A DNA stretch of 64,000 nucleotides from Pigoraptor vietnamica (Eukaryota > Opisthokonta > Filasterea), in contig CALSCQ010003162.1 of the NCBI GenBank assembly GCA_943704525.1, positions 1-64,000 of the forward strand. The letters are read 5' to 3'. Positions 1,144-62,314 of this stretch are shown here, piece by piece. The notes under the pieces are model-generated. The model was not told the origin of the DNA. It did not search any database and saw only the letters and a list, made by a program, of their open reading frames with translations. The position numbers and the translations under genes are program-made. Positions within the stretch are counted from its first letter, which is position 1. Every line of letters begins with the position of its first letter.

Positions 1144-3204
1144 ATGGCGGCGAACGTGGACAGTTATTCGGAGCTTCTCGACCCTAGCGAGCATGGCGTC
1201 CTCAAGAATGCCGTGGGCCCGCGGTGTCAGGTGCGCTTGTAGTGTTGACGCGTGGTTCGACGATCGTGGCATCAATTACGTTGCTGACGTGCATTATGCA
1301 CAGTTTTTGGCCATGTCGGTCGCGCAGCTGTTTTTCGCGCAGCCCGATTGGGCGCTGCAGAGCATTGGCGCCGTGTGCCTCGTCAAGGACAACCAGAAGC
1401 GCTCCTACTTTCTCAAGCTGATGGACCCCCAGGTGGGCATGGTCTTCTTTTTCTATTTCTTTTTTTTTCTTGAAAATAGTGCGATGCTCACCAAGAGTGC
1501 TTGCTGCAGTCTGGTGCCGTCAGCTGGGAGCAGGAAATCTACACCGAGATGAAGTACAACAAGCCCCGTCCGTACTTTCACATGTTCTCCGGAGACGTGG
1601 GTACTCCTGTCTACCGTACATCGCGCGTGTTGTGCTGCTGGTCCACTCTGCTAACAGGCGGATTGCGCAGAGCTGCACCGTTGGGCTCTGCTTTGCCGTC
1701 GGCGCCGAGGGCGAGGCGGACCGCTTCAAGGAGAAGGTCGACGAGATTGTCAAGAAGCGTGAGTGTTTGCTTGCGTCGAGACAATTGGCCTCGTTCTTCT
1801 ATTTGGGCGAAACAGACGCGCTTTTGTTCGAGGTGATATGACAATTTGTCCTGTTTGCGCTGGGCAGGCAACCAGGCTAGCACGCCGCGCAAGAGCATGG
1901 CGCCCTCGGCGGCTGGCATTTCGGCCCCGGGGAACGCCCCTGTCTCTGGCCCGTCCATCTCGGCGCCGACGCCCGCGGTGCAGAAGTCGCTGAGCAACGA
2001 GACCGCCATGAGCAAGGGCGGCACCATCAAGGCATGTGCCGCTCGCTTTTGTGCTCAAAGCATTTTGCGCATGTCGCTTACTCGCACGCACTGATTGCGC
2101 AGGGCAAGGACAAGAAGGGGCGCCCCAAGATTAGCAAGCTGGACATTTCGACGCCGTCGGATTTCCGCCACGTCGGACACATTGGCTGGGACCCCGACAA
2201 GGGGTTCGACGTCAACAACATTCCGCCCGAGTGGAAGGCGCTCTTCGACAAGGCCGGTGTCACGAGCGAGCAGCTGCAGGACAAGGAGACGGCGAAGATT
2301 GTCATGGACTTCGTCAACGAGCACGGTGGACTCGGTGCGCCACCGCCCGCATCGCTTGGCGCCCCGGCGCCTGCCCGAGGTCCCGCGCCCGCACCCCCAA
2401 GCACCCGTGGAGGTGCGTACCGCTTTTGGTTGTTAGATGTCGAATGTGGGTAGTTTTCAACCGCTCTTGCTCACTGAGTCTCTCGTTTTCACAGCCCCAC
2501 CGCCGCCCCCCGCCGGCGGCAACCGCGGCCCTCCTCCTCCCCCGCCCGGTGGTCGCGATGCCGCGCCGCCGCCGCCCTCTCGTGGTGCGCCGCCGCCGCC
2601 GCCGGCCGGTGGACGCGGTGCTGCGCCGCCGCCTCCCCCTTCGCGTGGTGGACCCCCTCCTCCTCCCGCCGCCGCTGGGCCCCCACCACCACCGCCGCCG
2701 TCTGCGCCCGCGCCGCCGCCACCTCCGCCGATGGGTGGCGCCCCCCCTCCCCCTCCAGCTGGAGGATTTCTTGCTGGCATCCAGGGTGGCGCTGGGAATC
2801 TCAAGAAGGCCGAGGTGCAGGAGCGCGCGCCGGACGATCCGCGCGGTGGCCTTCTGTCGGCCATCCAGGGCTTCGATTCGACGCGCCTCAAGAAGGTGGG
2901 TCGCACACTTCCGCTGTCGGTTCTTTGGCTTGTATAATGGCTGACGGATTCTCCTTCTCGTCTGCAGGCGGATCCTTCGGAGCGCCCGCCCCCGCCGGCC
3001 GAGTCGAACGACCTGGACGGCATGGCGGCTGCACTTGCGAATGCGCTTGCGTCTCGCAAGAACGTCATGATGAAGGAGTCCGGTGAGTGGCTGAAGGATG
3101 TTCTCGCTTCGTGTTTTTAGGGGTTAAATGTGCTCATGGACGCTCTCGTTGCAGACGACGAGGACGACGGCGATGTTGGCGGCGATGATGACGAGTGGGA
3201 CTGA
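1144..3204 (+). CDS. WAS: WASP-family actin nucleation promoter (WH1-CRIB-polyproline-WH2x2-CA)
   Basis: This is a Wiskott-Aldrich syndrome-type protein of about 475 residues that links Cdc42/Rac signalling to the Arp2/3 complex. Nine exons can be read. Exons 1-4 give a WH1/EVH1 domain (ALQSIGAVCLVKDNQKRSYF, then FAVGAEGEADRFKEKV). The exon from 2103 gives a basic stretch and a CRIB motif (ISTPSDFRHVGHIGWD). A glycine-proline tract follows at 2493-2760. Two WH2 motifs come next (GFLAGIQGG..LKK and GLLSAIQGF..RLKK), then a central helix and an acidic end finishing in DDDEWD with the terminal Trp that contacts Arp2/3. The intron at 2032-2102 starts with GC instead of GT. The complete domain set in canonical order makes it a true WASP rather than WAVE. 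Confidence 0.93.
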
Positions 3205-16061: not shown

Positions 16062-17378
16062 CTACTTGTTCTCAGCGCTTGATCGGTAGCTTTGTCCGTG
16101 GATGCTCCCTGGTCGCCCCCGCGAACTGGACGAGTACGACTGCGAGTGGCTGCGCGCGAGAGAGCCATAGGCGCCGCCGGGGTACGACGGCGTGCCCTGG
16201 TGATAAGCGTGCGGCAGCGTCGGGATGTCGTAGGGGTTGCTGTTGCGGATGAGCGGGTGCACGGTGTCGCCGTCCTCGCTGTCGCTCTCGTAGCGCTTCG
16301 GATTGTCGAAGAAGTACGTCCGCGCGCCGCCGTCGGGGAGGTCCGGGTTCACGGCGGGGTGCAGCGAGTCGGCCTGCGTGAGCCGCGGCTTCTTGACGCG
16401 GAAGAACCACACCATCGCAAAGGTCGGGAGAATCTCCCACAGAAACAGCGACGCGCAGAGGAAGGCGTAGTTGTACGTCTTGTTGTCGTCAAAGTCAAAG
16501 TGGTCGGCGGCCGATCCGTGGCGGGGGTCGCCCACCACAAACGCCGTGAGGTTCGTTGCGACGGCGACAATGTTGTACACGGCGCGCGACGTGAAGAGGA
16601 CGGCCATGAGCGCCATCAGCAGCACAACCTGGCGCAGCGTCGTGCCCTTTGCCTGCAGCAGCACGCTGGCGCTGCCGAGCTTCATCACGCGGAACATGTA
16701 CACGACCAGCGCCGCGGACAGAAGGAGGAAGAGCGTCTCGTTCACCGCAACGCGCGCAATCGCAATCGATTTGGGAAACGTCACGCGGTTCCCAACGATG
16801 GCAACGCAAGTGATGTTGACGGAAAAGAACGCAACGTTCGAGCACATCCACGTCGAGAGCAGAATGCGCTTGTAGAGAGCCTTGGACGCGAGCTGCCATC
16901 GCCCCTTGTGCACGACTTGCGCAAAGTACAGCACGAGCAGGCTGAACGTCGCAAACTGCAGCGTGATTGGCACGCAGTAGATGAACCGATACACGGCGAG
17001 CGACCAGTTGGTCACGAGGTTGAGACCGAAGAGAATCGTCCGCAGCAGCGCCCAGAGGAAGCACAGCGCGAGGAAGAGGCTCTGGTACGACAGCTTCTTG
17101 TGCCGGTAGAACAGGATGCGCGCGAGTTGAAAGAGGATGAACACGACCATCACCGCGTAGGACACCGTCAGCGCAATGGTGAGCGTCGTGTGAATCGAGG
17201 CGGGCAGCAGGTGCGCCGGCGTCAGCGACGAGAAGGGAATCACGTTCTGCACGTGCGTTCCGTTGGCCCGCAGCACGTGCATCGCCGGCGTCGCCTCCGC
17301 CGCCCCCGTGGGGCCCATGCTACTCGTCCCCGCTCCCGCCATCGTGCGAGCACCGCCCGGGATGCGCTGCAGGAACAA
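16062..17378 (-). CDS. GPR137-family seven-helix lysosomal membrane protein
   Basis: This is a single-exon protein of 438 residues. After a short lumenal region, hydrophobic helices begin at ~residue 60 (TTLTIALTVSYAVMVVFILF). The family signature YRHKKLSYQSLFLALCFLWA follows, then five further helices and a polar Ser/Tyr-rich cytosolic tail of about 110 residues (SHSQSYSSSSRG). GPR137 proteins sit on lysosomes and support Rag/mTORC1 signalling in animals. Plant THH1/TOM1 proteins are distant relatives. MAGAGTSSM (residue 13) is an alternative start. It converges on RBM25, with about 215 bp between stops. Confidence 0.85.
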   Translation of the reverse strand: MFLQRIPGGARTMAGAGTSSMGPTGAAEATPAMHVLRANGTHVQNVIPFSSLTPAHLLPASIHTTLTIALTVSYAVMVVFILFQLARILFYRHKKLSYQSLFLALCFLWALLRTILFGLNLVTNWSLAVYRFIYCVPITLQFATFSLLVLYFAQVVHKGRWQLASKALYKRILLSTWMCSNVAFFSVNITCVAIVGNRVTFPKSIAIARVAVNETLFLLLSAALVVYMFRVMKLGSASVLLQAKGTTLRQVVLLMALMAVLFTSRAVYNIVAVATNLTAFVVGDPRHGSAADHFDFDDNKTYNYAFLCASLFLWEILPTFAMVWFFRVKKPRLTQADSLHPAVNPDLPDGGARTYFFDNPKRYESDSEDGDTVHPLIRNSNPYDIPTLPHAYHQGTPSYPGGAYGSLARSHSQSYSSSSRGRPGSIHGQSYRSSAENK

Positions 17379-30397: not shown

Positions 30398-33106
<2,709 letters not shown>

Positions 33107-41645: not shown

Positions 41646-41803
41646 CACGCGTGCCAAAAATACACGGTTGGTGTGAAGGAAAACAGCCACACCGCAATTT
41701 GAAAGGCTCGACAACGCACCCCACCCCGCACACTGACGCTACAGCAACAAACCCGTGGTCGCCTCGTACGACATTCCTCACCGCGGAGCGTGCGCTGCGG
41801 AAA

Positions 41804-44800
41804 TGGGGCGACAGAGGGGTGGTCGCGAGGGTGGCACGGGGGCGCTGCTAGTGCTGGCGATGGTGCTCTGCGCCCGTGCCGCGAGCGCCGACTTTGCGTG
41901 GAAGCCGCTTGCGGACACGGTCGACGGCCGTTGCGACCATGGCACCGGCGTCTTTCAGGGGAAGCTGTACATGTTTGGCGGCTACAATGAGGCGGATGGG
42001 GGCGTTACTAAGTGAGTGCCTTGCGTGGTTGCGCTGAGCGGGCGACCCATTCCTCACGTGTGTCTCCCCAGGTACAATGCCATCGTCGTCTACGACAGTG
42101 GCAACGACGCGTGGACTGAGCTGTCTGTTGCCGGCACCCCGCCCTCGCCGCGATCTGCGTCGGCTGTGGTGGGTGTAGTGCGGTGTATAACGAAACGCTC
42201 TCACGTGGCACTGATTTTACGCTCTTCCTCAGGCCGTCGTTGGGTCTCTGCTTGTGGTGATTGGCGGCATCAATGAGGACGAAGAGACTTTGAACGACGT
42301 CTATTTCGTCAACCTCACGGCCGCGACACCTACATGGACGGCGGTGTGTATTCTCGCTGTCTGTTTGTTTGACTCTGCAGATGCGCTAACGACGGTGCGC
42401 TTTGCTCCGTGCCGCAGCCGGCACTCACAAACATTGCACAGACACCCCCTGGCGTGTCGTGGTGCACTTCGACGGTCTTTGGAACCAACGTGTTCCTGTA
42501 CGGCACATATTACTACGACACGGACCAGGTGGGTGCGTGGCATGTGGCCGACCGCAATGTGAACGGATCCCTCACTTACCTCCCGGCAATTCCACCTACA
42601 GAGCCGCACCTACATCCTCGGTATGTTGCACTGGGTTTCCCGCACATGCGGTCTGTGGTGCCTGTGGGTTTTCTCATCGCACTGGCGGGACATGCAGACA
42701 CGGCCAACTGGTCATGGGAGCTGGTGGCCTACAACTGCGGGGCGAGTGGCACGTACACGCCGCTGTCGAACACGCTCGTCTACCGCGACAAATTTCGCAA
42801 CATAGACTCCCTGGCGTCCGATGCGGCGGCATTGGTGGTGCCCCAGATTAAGGTTCGGCTGTTCGTTGGTGAGCCTGCGCAATTGTGCAAGGCGGCCGAG
42901 TGACTGTTGTTTTGGTGGGCTGCAGGGATCCACTCCGCTTAACGTGACAAAGGTCCGCTTGTGGCTTGACGACGCCGCCACGCAAAATGCGTAAGTGCAT
43001 ATATTCGGCGCCCATTTGGCGACCTCTGACTCAAGTAGCACGGGAAGCCTGACAGCGCCGTGTGCAGGGCGGCCTTCAAGGCGTCGGGCGACGCGGTCAC
43101 GGCTGCGCGCGGAATGCTCGCTTCCGTGAGCGATTCGGACTCCCCGGCCACCATTGTCTCTGCATTTAATGTGGGTGCACGTCGTCGTTTGCGTTGCGCT
43201 GAGAGCACTGCGCTGACGTCGCTTTCTCTCTGCCATGCAGAATTTCCTTGGGTACTGGACGAACGCAACGCAGGGTGCGTCCACGACCGCATGCGGGCGG
43301 GCGTCGTGCCCTCCTGCAAACTGCACCGTGCCGCCGCCCATGAGCGGCGCGCGTGCCGTGTACTACGGCGGCCTGGTGTACATGTTCGGCGGATGGTCGT
43401 GCTCGGGGCCTGGTGAGTGGCACTCGCATGACGCATGCATCGCCCGTCCGTGCGAGGCTCAGTGTCGCTGTGTTATCACGCAGGCATCGGCGGCCCGGAT
43501 TGCTTCAGTCGCGACGTGTTTGTCTACAACACAACGTCGCGTTCGTGGTCCATCCCCGTTGTCACAAGTACGCTCACCAACGGCGATCCTCCCCCGCCGA
43601 CTTCGTTTGGCAGCTTTGTGCTGTCGCCGGCTGAAAAGGTTGCTTATGCATTTGGCGGCGGATATCTCGACAGCGCGGGTGACTGGTGCGTACTGGGGCT
43701 TATTGTAGCATTATTCGTGCTCCTCCCTTCCGCTGAACCCTTGCTGCTCTGCGAGCAGGTATTACGACGATACGGTGTATGCGCTTAATCTGCAGACGCT
43801 ATCGTGGTCGACCCCGGTCGTAAAAGGGGCGTTGCCGCCGCGGCGGTGGTCGCATACGTTTGACAAGATTGACGCGGGCTTCATTCTCTACGGTGGCTGC
43901 AAGCCTCCGGAGAGCTACTATCATGACACGATGCTCCTGTACCCTGTGGAGACGGCCGCAACCAAGTCCGTCGCGGAAGGCACTGGCCTCACGGCGGCCG
44001 TCGCAGGCAGGAAAGGTCATGCCTTAATTCAGGTGCGCGATACGACAGGCGCCGACGTCCTGTTTGGTGGCGAGGCGGTGGGGGCTTTCGGCTTCTCGGT
44101 TGGCCAGTACCAGTCGTACTTCCGCGCTGACGTCGTCGACTATGCGAACGGCACGTATGCCTTGGACTATTCGGTGACAGTCGCCGGCCCGTACCGTCTC
44201 TCCATCACCCTGAACGGTCGAGACATCGTTGGAAGCCCCTTCAACATAACGGTGGCTCCGGAGGTATGTGTTTGACACCAGCGGCGCTGACGTCATGGTG
44301 CGTTGGTCTGATTCGCGCGCTTGGGACGTGTGTGCAGGTGCCCGACCCGGCCCAGACGTATCCTTACGGCGCGGGCTCAAAGGGCGCGGTCGCCACTTAT
44401 CCTGCGCGCTTCTGGATCTACAGCGCGGATCGCTACGGGAACAATGCGCCCATCGAGCACGGAAAGCCTTTTGTGGTCACGTTCGCACTGGGCGGCAGCG
44501 TCGTGGCAATCCATACCATCACAGACTCCCTCGATTTGAGCGAGGGGTATCCCGTCAAATTCACCCTTCCGACCCCGGGCGTGTACAACGTCTCCATCCT
44601 GTACGACGGGCAACCGGTTTCGCAGTCGCCGTTTGCCCTGCGCGTGTCTCCCACCGGTAAGTGGTTGCAACTTATTGCCAGTTGAGTCGGCTGGAAAGCA
44701 GTCCAGTGTTCTGATCATTCGCTTTGACGACACGCAGCGACGGACAACCGCATCGACGGCGTGTACATCTTCTTCCTCGTGCTGGGGTGTCTGCTCATCT

Positions 44801-46066
44801 GCCTCTCGATCCTCATGATGGTACGCATGTACCTCGCGCGGGAGAAGAAGGTTTTCAAGTCGGCAAGCCCTCCGTTTCTGTTTGTGATTCTTTGCGGGTG
44901 AGTACGATTTTCCGCGTCCTTCGAATGATCCTGAGTGTGTTGCGCATGGATTAAGCGACCGGCAATTTTGTTGCGGACGATAGGTCTTGCGTCTCGTACG
45001 CGTGGGTGTTCTTCGCGTACCCGTCCCCCACGGCTGCCCTCTGCACCGTGCAGCAGTGGTGCATTCATGTCGGCTTTGCTCTCATGCTCGGAGCGCTCGT
45101 GCTCAAGACACAGCGGTGGGTCGGTGTGGCATGTGTCCCACTTCTTAATCGTGCTTTCACGTGTTATGTCACGGAAGGGCAATGGCACGACTTGACTCCT
45201 TATGCCACGTCGGCGTCTCCGCCGCAGTATCGCTATCATTTTCAACTCGAAGCTCAACAAGAAGATCCGCCTGAGGGACAGCCTGCTCTTCCAGTACTTG
45301 GCGGTGATCGTCGCTGTGTTCATCATATACATGATCGTGTGGTCTGCCGCGGGCACGCCGTCGGTCGAGGTCACCTCCGGCCTCTCGGTAACCGAGACGC
45401 CGTCGGGGTACGTGCTCGTCGACGACAAGATTAACAAGCAGTGTCGCACGGACTGGTGGAACTACGCCGTCATGCTCGGCGAGCTGTTCATCCTCCTTTA
45501 CGGAATGCGCCTCGCCTTTCTGGTCCGGAAGACGCCCAACGCGTTCAACGAGTCCCGCTTCATCTCGTTTTCGGTGTACAACTGGTTCTTCGTCGCCGCC
45601 GTCGTTCAGCTGATCGTCCACTTCGCCGTCGACAAGGATGCGAACATCGTGTTTGCGCTGACGGCAATTCAGGTGGACCTGACCGTCGGCATGGTCGTTG
45701 CGCTTCTGTTTCTGCCGAAGCATCGGGCCGTTTCCCTCGGTAAGGGCGACGGTTCGACGTCGCAAGGGGGCGACACTTCATCGACCCGTATGACGGACAT
45801 TGAGACGCGTGCCAGTAGCGCGGCAGATGCTCGTGCGATGTCGCTGCTTCAGGACGAATGCAAACGTCTCATGCAAGAGAACGAGAAGGTGCCGTGTGCC
45901 GCCTTCTTTGTTCTGTCATTCTTGATACGTATTTCCTACTTACTTAATGTGCCCTCCGCAGCTCAAGCAAATCATGATGAAGCACGGCAACCGCCACGTC
46001 GACAAGGGGGCCAAGAGCACGCCGCCACCGGTGCAGGCTTCGATTCGGCCAGACCAGCACGCCTGA
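41804..46066 (+). CDS. Class C-type seven-helix receptor with Kelch and filamin-repeat ectodomain
   Basis: About 15 exons form one reading. A signal peptide (LLVLAMVLCARAASA) is followed by Kelch motifs over 41900-43960 (GTGVFQGKLYMFGGYNE, GSLLVVIGGINEDEETL, GARAVYYGGLVYMFGGWS, SHTFDKIDAGFILYGGC). Two filamin/ABP280 repeats lie at 44030-44660 (GTYALDYSVTVAGPYRLSI..GSPFNITV and PGVYNVSILYDGQPVSQSPF). Then come seven helices (44760-45740): VYIFFLVLGCLLICLSILMM, SPPFLFVILCG, WCIHVGFALMLGALVLKTQR and so on, ending LLFLPKH with the class C PK motif. The conserved extracellular cysteines are present (AALCTVQQW, NKQCRTDWW). A cytosolic coiled coil (LLQDECKRLMQENEKLKQIM) recalls GABA-B receptors. There is no Venus-flytrap domain. 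Signalling by a G protein is expected but not shown. Confidence 0.85.
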
Positions 46067-57886: not shown

Positions 57887-60800
57887 ATGGCGACCATGGC
57901 GTCGTGGGCATGGGCGGCGTTCGTTGTCTGCGCACTGCTCTCTGCGTCGCACGCGCACGTCGTGTGCAAAGATCCTCCAGACTGCTCAGGCAAGTGGCCA
58001 TCTGTGTGAGTCACGTGCACGTTCTGTCCTCTAACGTTATTTGCTGCAGAGCCGCTGAGCAAGGCGAAAGCCATCCGGTCGCACCGACCCACAGTGCCCC
58101 TCGGCGAACTCATGTTTGAGGACGGCGAAGAGATTATGGTTTATGCAAAGGGCCTGCCGCGCAACCACTGGAAGGGCGGTGGGTGCATCGTTTTAGGTGC
58201 TGTTCGTTTACATGCCCCACTCGCATGCCTCTCACCGGCTTGTGCAACAGAAATCAATGGCCGGCGAGGGGTTTTTCCCTCTTCTGCTGTTGTCGAGAAC
58301 GTGGTGTATGCGCCGGGGCACGAGGCGCTGGACCTCTTTGTGCCGAGCGACGACGACATTGCGCGCTTCAGGGGGGACCTGGCTGCCCTCGAGCACAGCG
58401 CCCAGGCGGACGACTGGGTGCGCACACTGTCTGTCTTTGACGTGTGCTTTGGCTTCTAGATAGCTGTTGAGGTGTCTGCCATGTCCCTTTCTTATTGTTA
58501 TGAATAGTTCTAAGATCATGTTCTGATGTTTTGCCGACCGCAGAAGTATTCCCGGTCGCGTCACGTTGCATTGAATCGACTGCGAGAAATGGGCGCAGAG
58601 TACGCCGCGTCACTCGAAGAGAATGCACCGCACGTTTACGGCGAGTTTCAGGAGGCCATGGTGCGCCTCGACAGCCTCAGCCGGGCCCTCATCGGTCCTG
58701 AACCGATGGATGTGCCCGAGGAGGAGGTGGAGGCCGAGCCGCCCGCGGAGCACCCGCATGGAGACGACGGAGAGGGCCACGATGCCGAGGGGGAGCCGGT
58801 GATGAGCGAAGCGGAGCTCGACCTCGCGCGTGCGGTCGCCGCGATTGAGCAGGAGTCGGCTGAGGCTGGGGACGACGGGCACGGCGAGGCTGTGCATGCC
58901 GACACCGCCCCAGATGCCGGTCATGCCGATGCCGGACACGCCGACTGGCATGCCGGCGGACACGCTGAGGGTCACGCTGACGGACACGCTGAGGGTCACG
59001 CCGACGGACACGCCGACGGGCGTGCTGACGGACACGCTGAGGGTCACGCCGACGGGCATGCTGACGGGCATGCTGAGGGGCACGACGTGTTGCATGCGCA
59101 CGAGGTTGACGGACACTCTGCCGCGGATGAGCACTTCGCGCGTGCCCACACCGATGACCCCGATGCGCGCGACCACCCTGCGGGAGGCGTGCCCGGGTCC
59201 GTCACGGCGAGTGCTCTCGAAGTGTCCACTGCCACGGCAGCCGTGTCCCTTGATGATTCAGCGGCTGCCGAGGCGACCACACCTCCAGCAGCAGCCACAG
59301 AGTCGGCGCCGGCTGTTCCTGCCTCGTCCGAGCCTGGCCTGCCTGCTGACGAGCATGCATTGGATGCGAGCAAGGACGACCATGCCGGACACCCTCCTGT
59401 GGATGAGTCTGTGACATTGGCGTCGAGTACAGACGGTACTCCGGCGAGTTCGGAAGCACCCGCAGCAGAAACCGTCATCGCGAGTGACCTTGGTTCGGTT
59501 GAGCCCGTGCCGGTTTCGTCGTCGTCCCACGAGGCCTCGGCTTTGTCCGAATTGCCGGGCGCGGAGGCGTCGGCGCCAGGTGAGGCGCATCCCTCATCGC
59601 TCGGTGGGGCGCAACTGGCGGCGAACGAGCCGTTCGCGGGCGAGGCGCACGTGGGCGATGCGGTCGCACATGAGAGTGCCCCTGTCGCTGTGCCGGATGC
59701 TGCATCGAACCGCGTTGATGTGCCGCTGTCCCCGGACGCGACGCACGACGCAAACGGTCCGCACGCGCCGGCGCCGTCGCTCACGTACTCGATGGCGGAC
59801 AAGAGCACGGCCACCGCGGACCCAGTCCCGGAGGTGGCAGCGGAACCCGTCGCGCAGCCGCCGCCTTCGTCCCCGCCGCACGTGCAGGACCACGCGGCTC
59901 CGGCTGCGCTGGAGGCTGTGGCAAACGGTTATTTGGAGCCGCTGGCTACTCTCCACACGGTGCCTCTGGTCCAGTCGGCCGCAACCGCCCTGCTGGGCGT
60001 CCTGACGGTGGTGTTGCTGCAGGCTTGCTTTGGCCGGCGCCGGGCAGCGTCGCAGTCGGCTGCCGCGGGCACTGTCAGCAAGGGCGTGGCTGAGGCCGAG
60101 AAGCGGATGATGGACGCGCTTCGGGGCTTGGAGGACGAAAAGGCGGCGCTGGTGCGGCGTGTGAAGGAGGAGGAGGGTCGCGCGCGCGGCTTTGCCGTAG
60201 AGGTTGATCGAGCGCGTGAGGAGGCGCGTGGTGCGCGTGCTGAGGCGCAGCAGTTGGCGTCTCGCCTCGCTGATGTCGAGCGGCGCGCTAATGCGATTGC
60301 AGCCGAACGCGACGAAGCGCGGGCAGGGCAAGTGGCGACAGCGGCATCGGAGGAGCGCCTGTCGGTGGCGCTGCAGGCCGTCGCCGCCGAGAAGGATCGT
60401 GCCGACCGCGCCGCCGCCGCCGCCGCCGACCTCGTCGCGGCGCTGGAGGAGGAGCGGGCTCAGCGCGCGCGCGCGGACGCCGAAGCGGCCGCCGACAGGG
60501 AGGTGATGGCGACGCAGCTCGCGGCCGCTGTGGACGCGCAGAAGAAGGCGCAGGGGGAGGCAAAGGCGATGGCTGCGGAGCTTGATGTGCTGCGCGTGTA
60601 CTTCAAGCACGACACGAGTGTTCCGGGGGAGGAGGACGAAGACGCCGAGGACGGCCCCAAGAAAGGTGCCAGCGACGCGACGCTTGTTGACACGCTTCGG
60701 CTGGACGTGGCACGTGAGCGCTCACAACGCGTTGCCGCCGAAGAGGAGTGCGGCCGGCTTTCTGGCGTGCTTGATTCGCAACGGGCGGCGCATGCGGCGT

Positions 60801-62314
60801 GGCAGGAGGACAAGCTGGCACTCGAGGCGCGTGTCGCTGAGCTGATGCACGATGTGGAAGCTGCGCGCGCATCCGTCGCGGAAATGGAAGAGGAGCGGAA
60901 GAAGGACAAGCGCCGCCTGGGTGTTGTGAAGGACTTCCTGGAGGAAGAGACGGCGAAGGCCAAGGCCCGCGCCGCCGAGTGCGAGGCACGGGAAGAGAGC
61001 GCCCGCAACGAGCTCGGCGGGCGCATTACGGCGCTTGAGCGGCAGTTGGCGGAGGCGCGCGGGCTGTGCGCGGCGCTGGAGCGCAAGGGTGCGGACGCCG
61101 AGGAGGCGCACGCGGCGCAGCTGGCGGAGGTCCAGCAGGCGCAGGCGGCGTACATCGAAGAGATGCACCAGTCGCACGCCGCATACATCAACGAGCTGCA
61201 GCAGATGCACGCGGCGCAGGTCGCCGAGCTGCGGCACACATTTTCCGCGCAGGTGGCCACCCTCCAGCAGTCGCATGCGGCTGCGCTCTCGGCAAGCCAG
61301 TTTGAGGCGGCATCGGCACAGGCGCGCGCGGACGCGGCGCACACGTCGGGAGCGCAGGCTGTGGAGAGCATGCGCACCGAGCACGAGCGCGTGTTCGCGG
61401 AAGTCACGCGGCGGCTTGCGGAGACGGAGCGGTTGTTGGAGGAGCGCACGAAGGAGGTCGGCTTCCTCCGCGGGCGCCTGCAGGAACTGACGGACGCCAA
61501 CCGCAAGATGCAGCAACAGCTCGCGGCGCGCCCGCGTACCCCGCATGGCGCACCTCCGCCGTCGCAGGCGCCTACCGGACAGCACACTTCGCCCGTTACT
61601 GCTGCGGCTGCTCCCCTGCCGCCTCCCGGCGGACGCCACACCCCCGTGGGCTACGGTGCGCCGCAGTATGCAGACGGCGGTGCGCAGGGTCATGCACCCG
61701 CGTATCCCCCGGCCCATGCTGCTCACGGTGGACATCCACCCCAGGGGCCGCCACACGGCCAGCCTCCTGGCGTGCGTGCCCCGGCACCCGTGCCGACACG
61801 CCCGGCAGGCCCCGCCGGGCAACCCATGCCGCCACGCCCCCCCGGTGCATCGGGAGTCGCGCAGCCTCCCTTTGGGCAGCAGCCGCAACCGCAACAGCAG
61901 CAACAGCACCCGCCGCAGCATGCGCACCCACCACCCCGCGGTCCTCCGGCGTCCACTCCCGGCGCACCGCCGCCTGGTGCGCAGCAGCCTGGCGCGCCGC
62001 AGCCGCAGCGGCCACAGCGGCCTCCGTCGGCGGGACCACCGGCCGCGCAGTCACCTCCACGCGGGCCGCCGGATGCGAGCGGGATGGCACCGGCGGGACG
62101 GGGTGCGCCTGTGCGTCCTGGTGGACGGCGCCCGCCTCCGCCGCAGGGAGCGCAGCAGGCCCAGGGAGCAGCACTCGCCGCGGGGGCCTATCCGCCCAAC
62201 GAAGGGCGGCCGCCGTCGGTGCAGCGTCAGCCCATTGCGGCACCGCAGGGATACGGCAACGGCGATGGCGGCGACGGCCAACCGATGGAGCCCGTGTGGG
62301 TGACGATGACCTAG
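57887..62314 (+). CDS. TANGO1/MIA3-like ER exit-site cargo receptor
   Basis: Four exons form one reading. A signal peptide (SWAWAAFVVCALLSASHAHV) is followed by VCKDPPDCS and a MIA-type SH3 domain: EPLSKAKAIRSHRP, GELMFEDGEEIMVYAKGLP, HWKGEINGRRGVFPSSAV, VENVVYAPGHE. The lumenal part continues with an acidic region and a His-rich tetrapeptide repeat (GHAE/GHAD, 58909-59090). One membrane segment (ATALLGVLTVVLLQACFG, about 59970-60030) precedes long cytosolic coiled coils (60080-61540). A Pro/Gln-rich C terminus (61550-62300) ends MEPVWVTMT. This is the full TANGO1 plan: lumenal SH3, membrane anchor, coils, proline-rich Sec23-binding region. The first intron (57990-58049) has a GC donor. Confidence 0.83.
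58909..59090 (+). repeat. 12 bp tandem repeat encoding GHA(E/D) in the TANGO1-like gene
   Basis: Units of the form GG-A/T-CACGC-T/C-GA-G/C repeat about a dozen times in frame and give a run of Gly-His-Ala-Glu/Asp in the ER lumen. Variants such as GRAD and GHDV mark the edges. Confidence 0.9.

Follow-up and report, generated by a model that had tools for sequence, protein, structure and literature searches.

Class C receptors are mostly regarded as small-molecule sensors that work by flytrap closure. The locus at 41,803-46,066 on the + strand of the 64-kb window, by which we mean the whole stretch of DNA that was analysed, raises the question of whether such a receptor can instead carry, within a single gene, a Kelch propeller and filamin repeats. 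Our hand-built model of this locus comprises 14 exons that splice into one open reading frame of 1,091 residues. We consider it likely that they constitute a single gene encoding a class C (glutamate/GABA-B family) GPCR, in which a Kelch propeller set on two filamin repeats replaces the clam shell. The continuous frame, the order of the domains, the class C domain and the conserved activation residues can all be read directly from the sequence.

Signal peptide, Kelch propeller and filamin stalk

The start codon was placed at 41,803, the first ATG in a frame that has a stop at 41,734. Residues 1-29 (41803..41889) have the character of a signal peptide, as had been predicted, with the n-region RQRGGR, the core ALLVLAMVLCA and the AxA site ASA|D. 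The Kelch region, a putative beta-propeller, follows at residues 30-526 (41890..43942, exons 1-9). Pfam analysis of the spliced protein bore out the claim of several Kelch motifs: Kelch_KLHDC2_KLHL20_DRC7 (PF24681) matches at 1.1e-45 in three stretches, the best of which covers residues 41-168, other Kelch models (Kelch_1/2/3/4/6) also match, reaching residues 365-514, and phmmer against the PDB returned KLHDC3 (1e-19) together with other Kelch proteins. Approximately 6-7 blades, with an insertion, were counted by eye. Structure prediction of exon 9 alone gave a pLDDT of 34, too low to be of use; the Kelch motifs are beyond doubt by Pfam. About 130 residues without a significant family match (residues ~250-378, 42748..43354) separate the two halves of the propeller; they contain a tight cysteine cluster, CGRASCPPANC, and could form a ligand-binding insertion. 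This region also holds intron 4 (42853-42925), the single uncertain splice of the model, for which in-frame alternatives exist 18 nt further upstream and 12 nt further downstream, either of which would alter a few residues and only in the propeller.

Both filamin-type repeats of the original prediction were recovered as Ig-like folds matching PF00630. The first (residues 530-627, 43952..44245) shares an exon with the last Kelch blade, and the second (residues 634-737, 44338..44649) occupies a single exon. The Pfam Filamin model matches at 4e-23 in two stretches, each repeat passes the cut-off when searched alone (2.1e-13 and 6.1e-11, respectively), and a PDB match to the Dictyostelium gelation factor (1.6e-21) extends across both. 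A single-sequence AF2 model of the second repeat (exon 10) consists entirely of beta strands at a modest confidence (pLDDT 70). Foldseek with this model ranked the TRIM3 filamin domain first at an E value of 0.016, none being lower, and adds little, as its matches include other Ig folds and unrelated proteins besides filamin domains. A filamin Ig domain is also joined to a beta-propeller in TRIM-NHL proteins (TRIM3, TRIM71/LIN-41), encountered among the PDB matches, which differ in being cytosolic, in placing the filamin domain before the propeller, in using NHL rather than Kelch repeats and in lacking a membrane domain. The signal peptide, the seven hydrophobic helices downstream and the presence of 10 N-glycosylation sequons in the ectodomain (4.7 in shuffles, p ~0.01; 0 in the tail) together indicate that propeller and stalk are extracellular.

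The predicted absence of a Venus flytrap is confirmed by Pfam, since neither ANF nor solute-binding models matched the spliced protein up to E = 1. The same search of the spliced protein detected neither the NCD3G cysteine-rich linker of mGluR, CaSR and T1R nor the Cache plus EGF-like ectodomain of GPR158 and GPR179. The accompanying generalisation, in which a Venus flytrap is the ligand sensor of known class C receptors, was too broad, and the contrast drawn from it overstated, because class C receptors without this domain are already known. GPR158 and GPR179 carry a Cache domain instead (PMC8611064, PMC12716839). Varied N-termini have been known in fungal class C receptors since 2012 (PMC3251606), and in those of gut fungi about 30% have a pectin-lyase fold, almost half have a type II solute-binding (sugar-binding-protein) domain and 0 have ANF (PMC5168858). 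A 2025 survey reports 5′-nucleotidase C-terminal and ephrin-receptor-like domains in the class C receptors of choanoflagellates, and diverse further domains in those of non-animal organisms (PMC12716839). The present protein resembles these chytrid, gut-fungal and protist receptors in placing class C helices beneath a non-canonical ectodomain, but the domains reported for them in the main texts are pectin-lyase fold, type II solute-binding, 5′-nucleotidase C-terminal, ephrin-receptor-like, EGF and ANF, not Kelch or filamin (PMC5168858, PMC3251606, PMC12716839). Among the papers searched, none paired Kelch or filamin with class C helices. The lack of a Venus flytrap is not new; the Kelch and filamin version is apparently new with respect to these papers and may have been described elsewhere. 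No relatives were confirmed in two scans of IMG/VR or in GTDB genomes.

What such an ectodomain would sense can be considered from its parts. Propellers usually have a protein or a glycan as partner. The one described here would bind an extracellular protein or glycan, and the filamin stalks would transmit the resulting ectodomain change to the helices; the earlier idea of a polymer or surface-protein ligand is reasonable. An adhesion or mechanical sensor, in which the propeller grips a surface or another cell while the filamin repeats form a tether that bears force, is a variant of this interpretation that differs in its stimulus, force on a tether versus relay of a soluble ligand. We regard it as somewhat unlikely. 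Filamin repeats are load-bearing Ig folds, a property established in animal and Dictyostelium filamins, and filamin relatives are found outside the cell in gamete adhesion proteins, to which the repeats show weak matches (the GEX2 Ig model at 4e-4, below its Pfam cut-off, and FUS1p at 5e-4). However, the stalk has just two such repeats, Pfam matched neither 7tm_2 nor the GAIN/GPS cleavage module in the spliced protein, unlike in adhesion GPCRs, and the mechanical stimulus is one that we infer.

The seven-helix domain and its switch residues

The membrane part of the receptor (residues 747-1001, 44758..45720, split by introns 44898-44983 and 45116-45227) contains seven hydrophobic helices and matches Pfam 7tm_3 (PF00003) at 4.5e-45, with 155 bits against a cut-off of 33.5 and coverage of profile positions 6-251 out of 251. 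It passes 7tm_3 on its own as well, so that all three families to which the original prediction appealed, 7tm_3, Kelch and Filamin, are recognised by their models. The class C hallmarks that had been noted, extracellular loop cysteines and a PK motif in helix 7, were located by alignment: TM3 Cys813 and ECL2 Cys909 align with the cysteines of GPR158 and GABA-B2, as does Pro1000-Lys1001 with the PK of both. Among PDB sequences the helices match GPR158/mGlyR (1e-23), GABA-B2 (3e-19), GPR179 (5e-16) and mGluR5 (3e-13). GPR158/mGlyR is the closest by sequence in this domain, with 67 identical residues out of 248 aligned. The lack of a Venus flytrap, the TM3-ECL2 cysteines, Lys3.50 and the PK at helix 7 are shared with GPR158 and GPR179, from which the receptor differs by having Kelch and filamin modules in place of Cache and EGF-like ones and by its short tail.

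The likeness to GABA-B2 extends to the residues involved in activation. In GABA-B2, Lys574(3.50) pairs with Asp688(6.35), Arg577(3.53) makes contact with the C-terminus of G alpha, and the lysines 586, 588 and 590 of intracellular loop 2 touch G alpha (PMC9360005). The alignment equates the first pair with Lys834 and Glu945 of the receptor, Arg577 with Arg837, and Lys586 and Lys590 with Lys845 and Lys849, respectively, Asn847 replacing the lysine at 588. A comparable lock that includes a TM7 lysine has been reported in GPR158 (PMC8611064), and this lysine corresponds to Lys1001. The receptor further resembles GABA-B2 in having SP at ICL1, KTxR at the end of TM3, a basic ICL2, N-D/E-S followed by SVYN in TM6, PK at TM7 and a zipper-like cytosolic segment; unlike GABA-B2, it has no Venus flytrap and its zipper is far shorter. 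Because the TM3-ECL2 cysteines, the ionic-lock pair, most of the ICL2 lysines and the PK are retained, the 7TM part looks competent for signalling, as judged from sequence, and intracellular loop 2 would engage a heterotrimeric G protein in the fashion of GABA-B2.

The GABA-B-like cytosolic coiled coil of the original prediction is present in a weaker form than its wording suggested, as a leucine zipper of only three heptads at residues 1041-1065 (45838..45985, split by the last intron, 45889-45961), with Leu1044, Leu1051 and Leu1058 at the d positions and Met, Cys, Asn and Met at the a positions. The C-terminal tail and the stop codon follow (45986..46066). The receptor is probably dimeric; two copies would stand side by side, and the zipper may aid this dimerisation.

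An improbable reading of the same domain makes the protein a receptor-like scaffold without G-protein activation of its own, as proposed for GPR158, which recruits RGS7-Gbeta5 and is not a standard activator (PMC8611064). The higher score of the helices against GPR158 than against GABA-B2 or mGluR5 is compatible with such a role, but ICL2 is basic and GABA-B2-like, the lock residues are retained, the tail is short, and the match to GPR158 past helix 7 is weak and lies outside the best-scoring PDB stretch.

A ligand-activated class C receptor with an exchanged sensor could represent an unreported subfamily, which we put forward tentatively, at somewhat less than an even chance: its Kelch propeller on a filamin stalk would sense the ligand, perhaps a polymer, a cell-wall glycan or a protein on the surface of prey or partner, and the filamin repeats would pass force or rotation to GABA-B-type helices. 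The occurrence of class C helices in well-preserved form beneath a propeller and stalk supports the notion that the mechanism of the helices and the dimer is ancient and that the sensor is exchangeable. The receptor also provides a concrete case in which to ask how a sensor unable to close like a clam still switches the helices.

Continuity of the gene and its surroundings

The claim of one continuous set of exons spanning 41804-46066 stands as a 14-exon open frame whose stop codon ends at 46,066, except that the start lies one base earlier, at 41,803. All 13 introns are GT-AG and measure 60-112 nt, their splice sites follow a single pattern with the exception of intron 4 (donor GTTCGG), and third-position GC (GC3) lies between 0.66 and 0.83 in each of the 14 exons. 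The end of the Kelch region and the first filamin repeat are encoded by one uninterrupted exon (43,759-44,263), and their fusion is therefore independent of any splice assumption. The join between the filamin repeats and the 7TM domain requires one intron of 81 nt (44,657-44,737; GTAAGT...CGCAG). The only ATGs within 44,600-44,830, at 44,815, 44,818 and 44,827, all fall within the inner end of helix 1, which leaves the 7TM half with no start as a protein of its own that includes a complete helix 1. Two adjacent genes, one for a secreted Kelch-filamin protein that could end near 44,687, as read-through past exon 10 meets a stop within about 12 codons, and one for a short 7TM protein, are thus very unlikely on the evidence of the shared Kelch-filamin exon and the missing start before helix 1, all the more as the 81 nt leave scant space for a promoter, the signals and length of the intron resemble those of the other 12, and the intron phases agree.

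The window is gene-dense, intron-rich and eukaryotic, probably from a single-celled organism, with 61% GC; no tRNA genes were detected in it, nor any tandem paralogue or second copy of the receptor. The upstream gene on the same strand ends at about 41,645 and has no Pfam match, and a neighbouring convergent gene has a Vps54-like Pfam match just under the cut-off. Farther genes encode an aquaporin, a kinesin, an initiation factor 2-type GTPase, kinases, a PP2C phosphatase and a MYST acetyltransferase. An uninterrupted open reading frame of 980 codons at 58589-61528 (+ strand) has no Pfam match. Another, of 415 residues at 16131-17375 (- strand), contains about seven hydrophobic helices and returned no match in Pfam (E up to 0.1) or the PDB (E up to 1); it is perhaps another seven-helix membrane protein. 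Two successive kinase domains in one exon run at 30619-33082 (+ strand), which Pfam identifies only as protein kinase, resemble the RSK type, although this assignment is guessed from sequence. At 1247-3105 (+ strand), a WH1 domain followed by a P21-Rho-binding domain (CRIB) identifies a WASP-type actin regulator.
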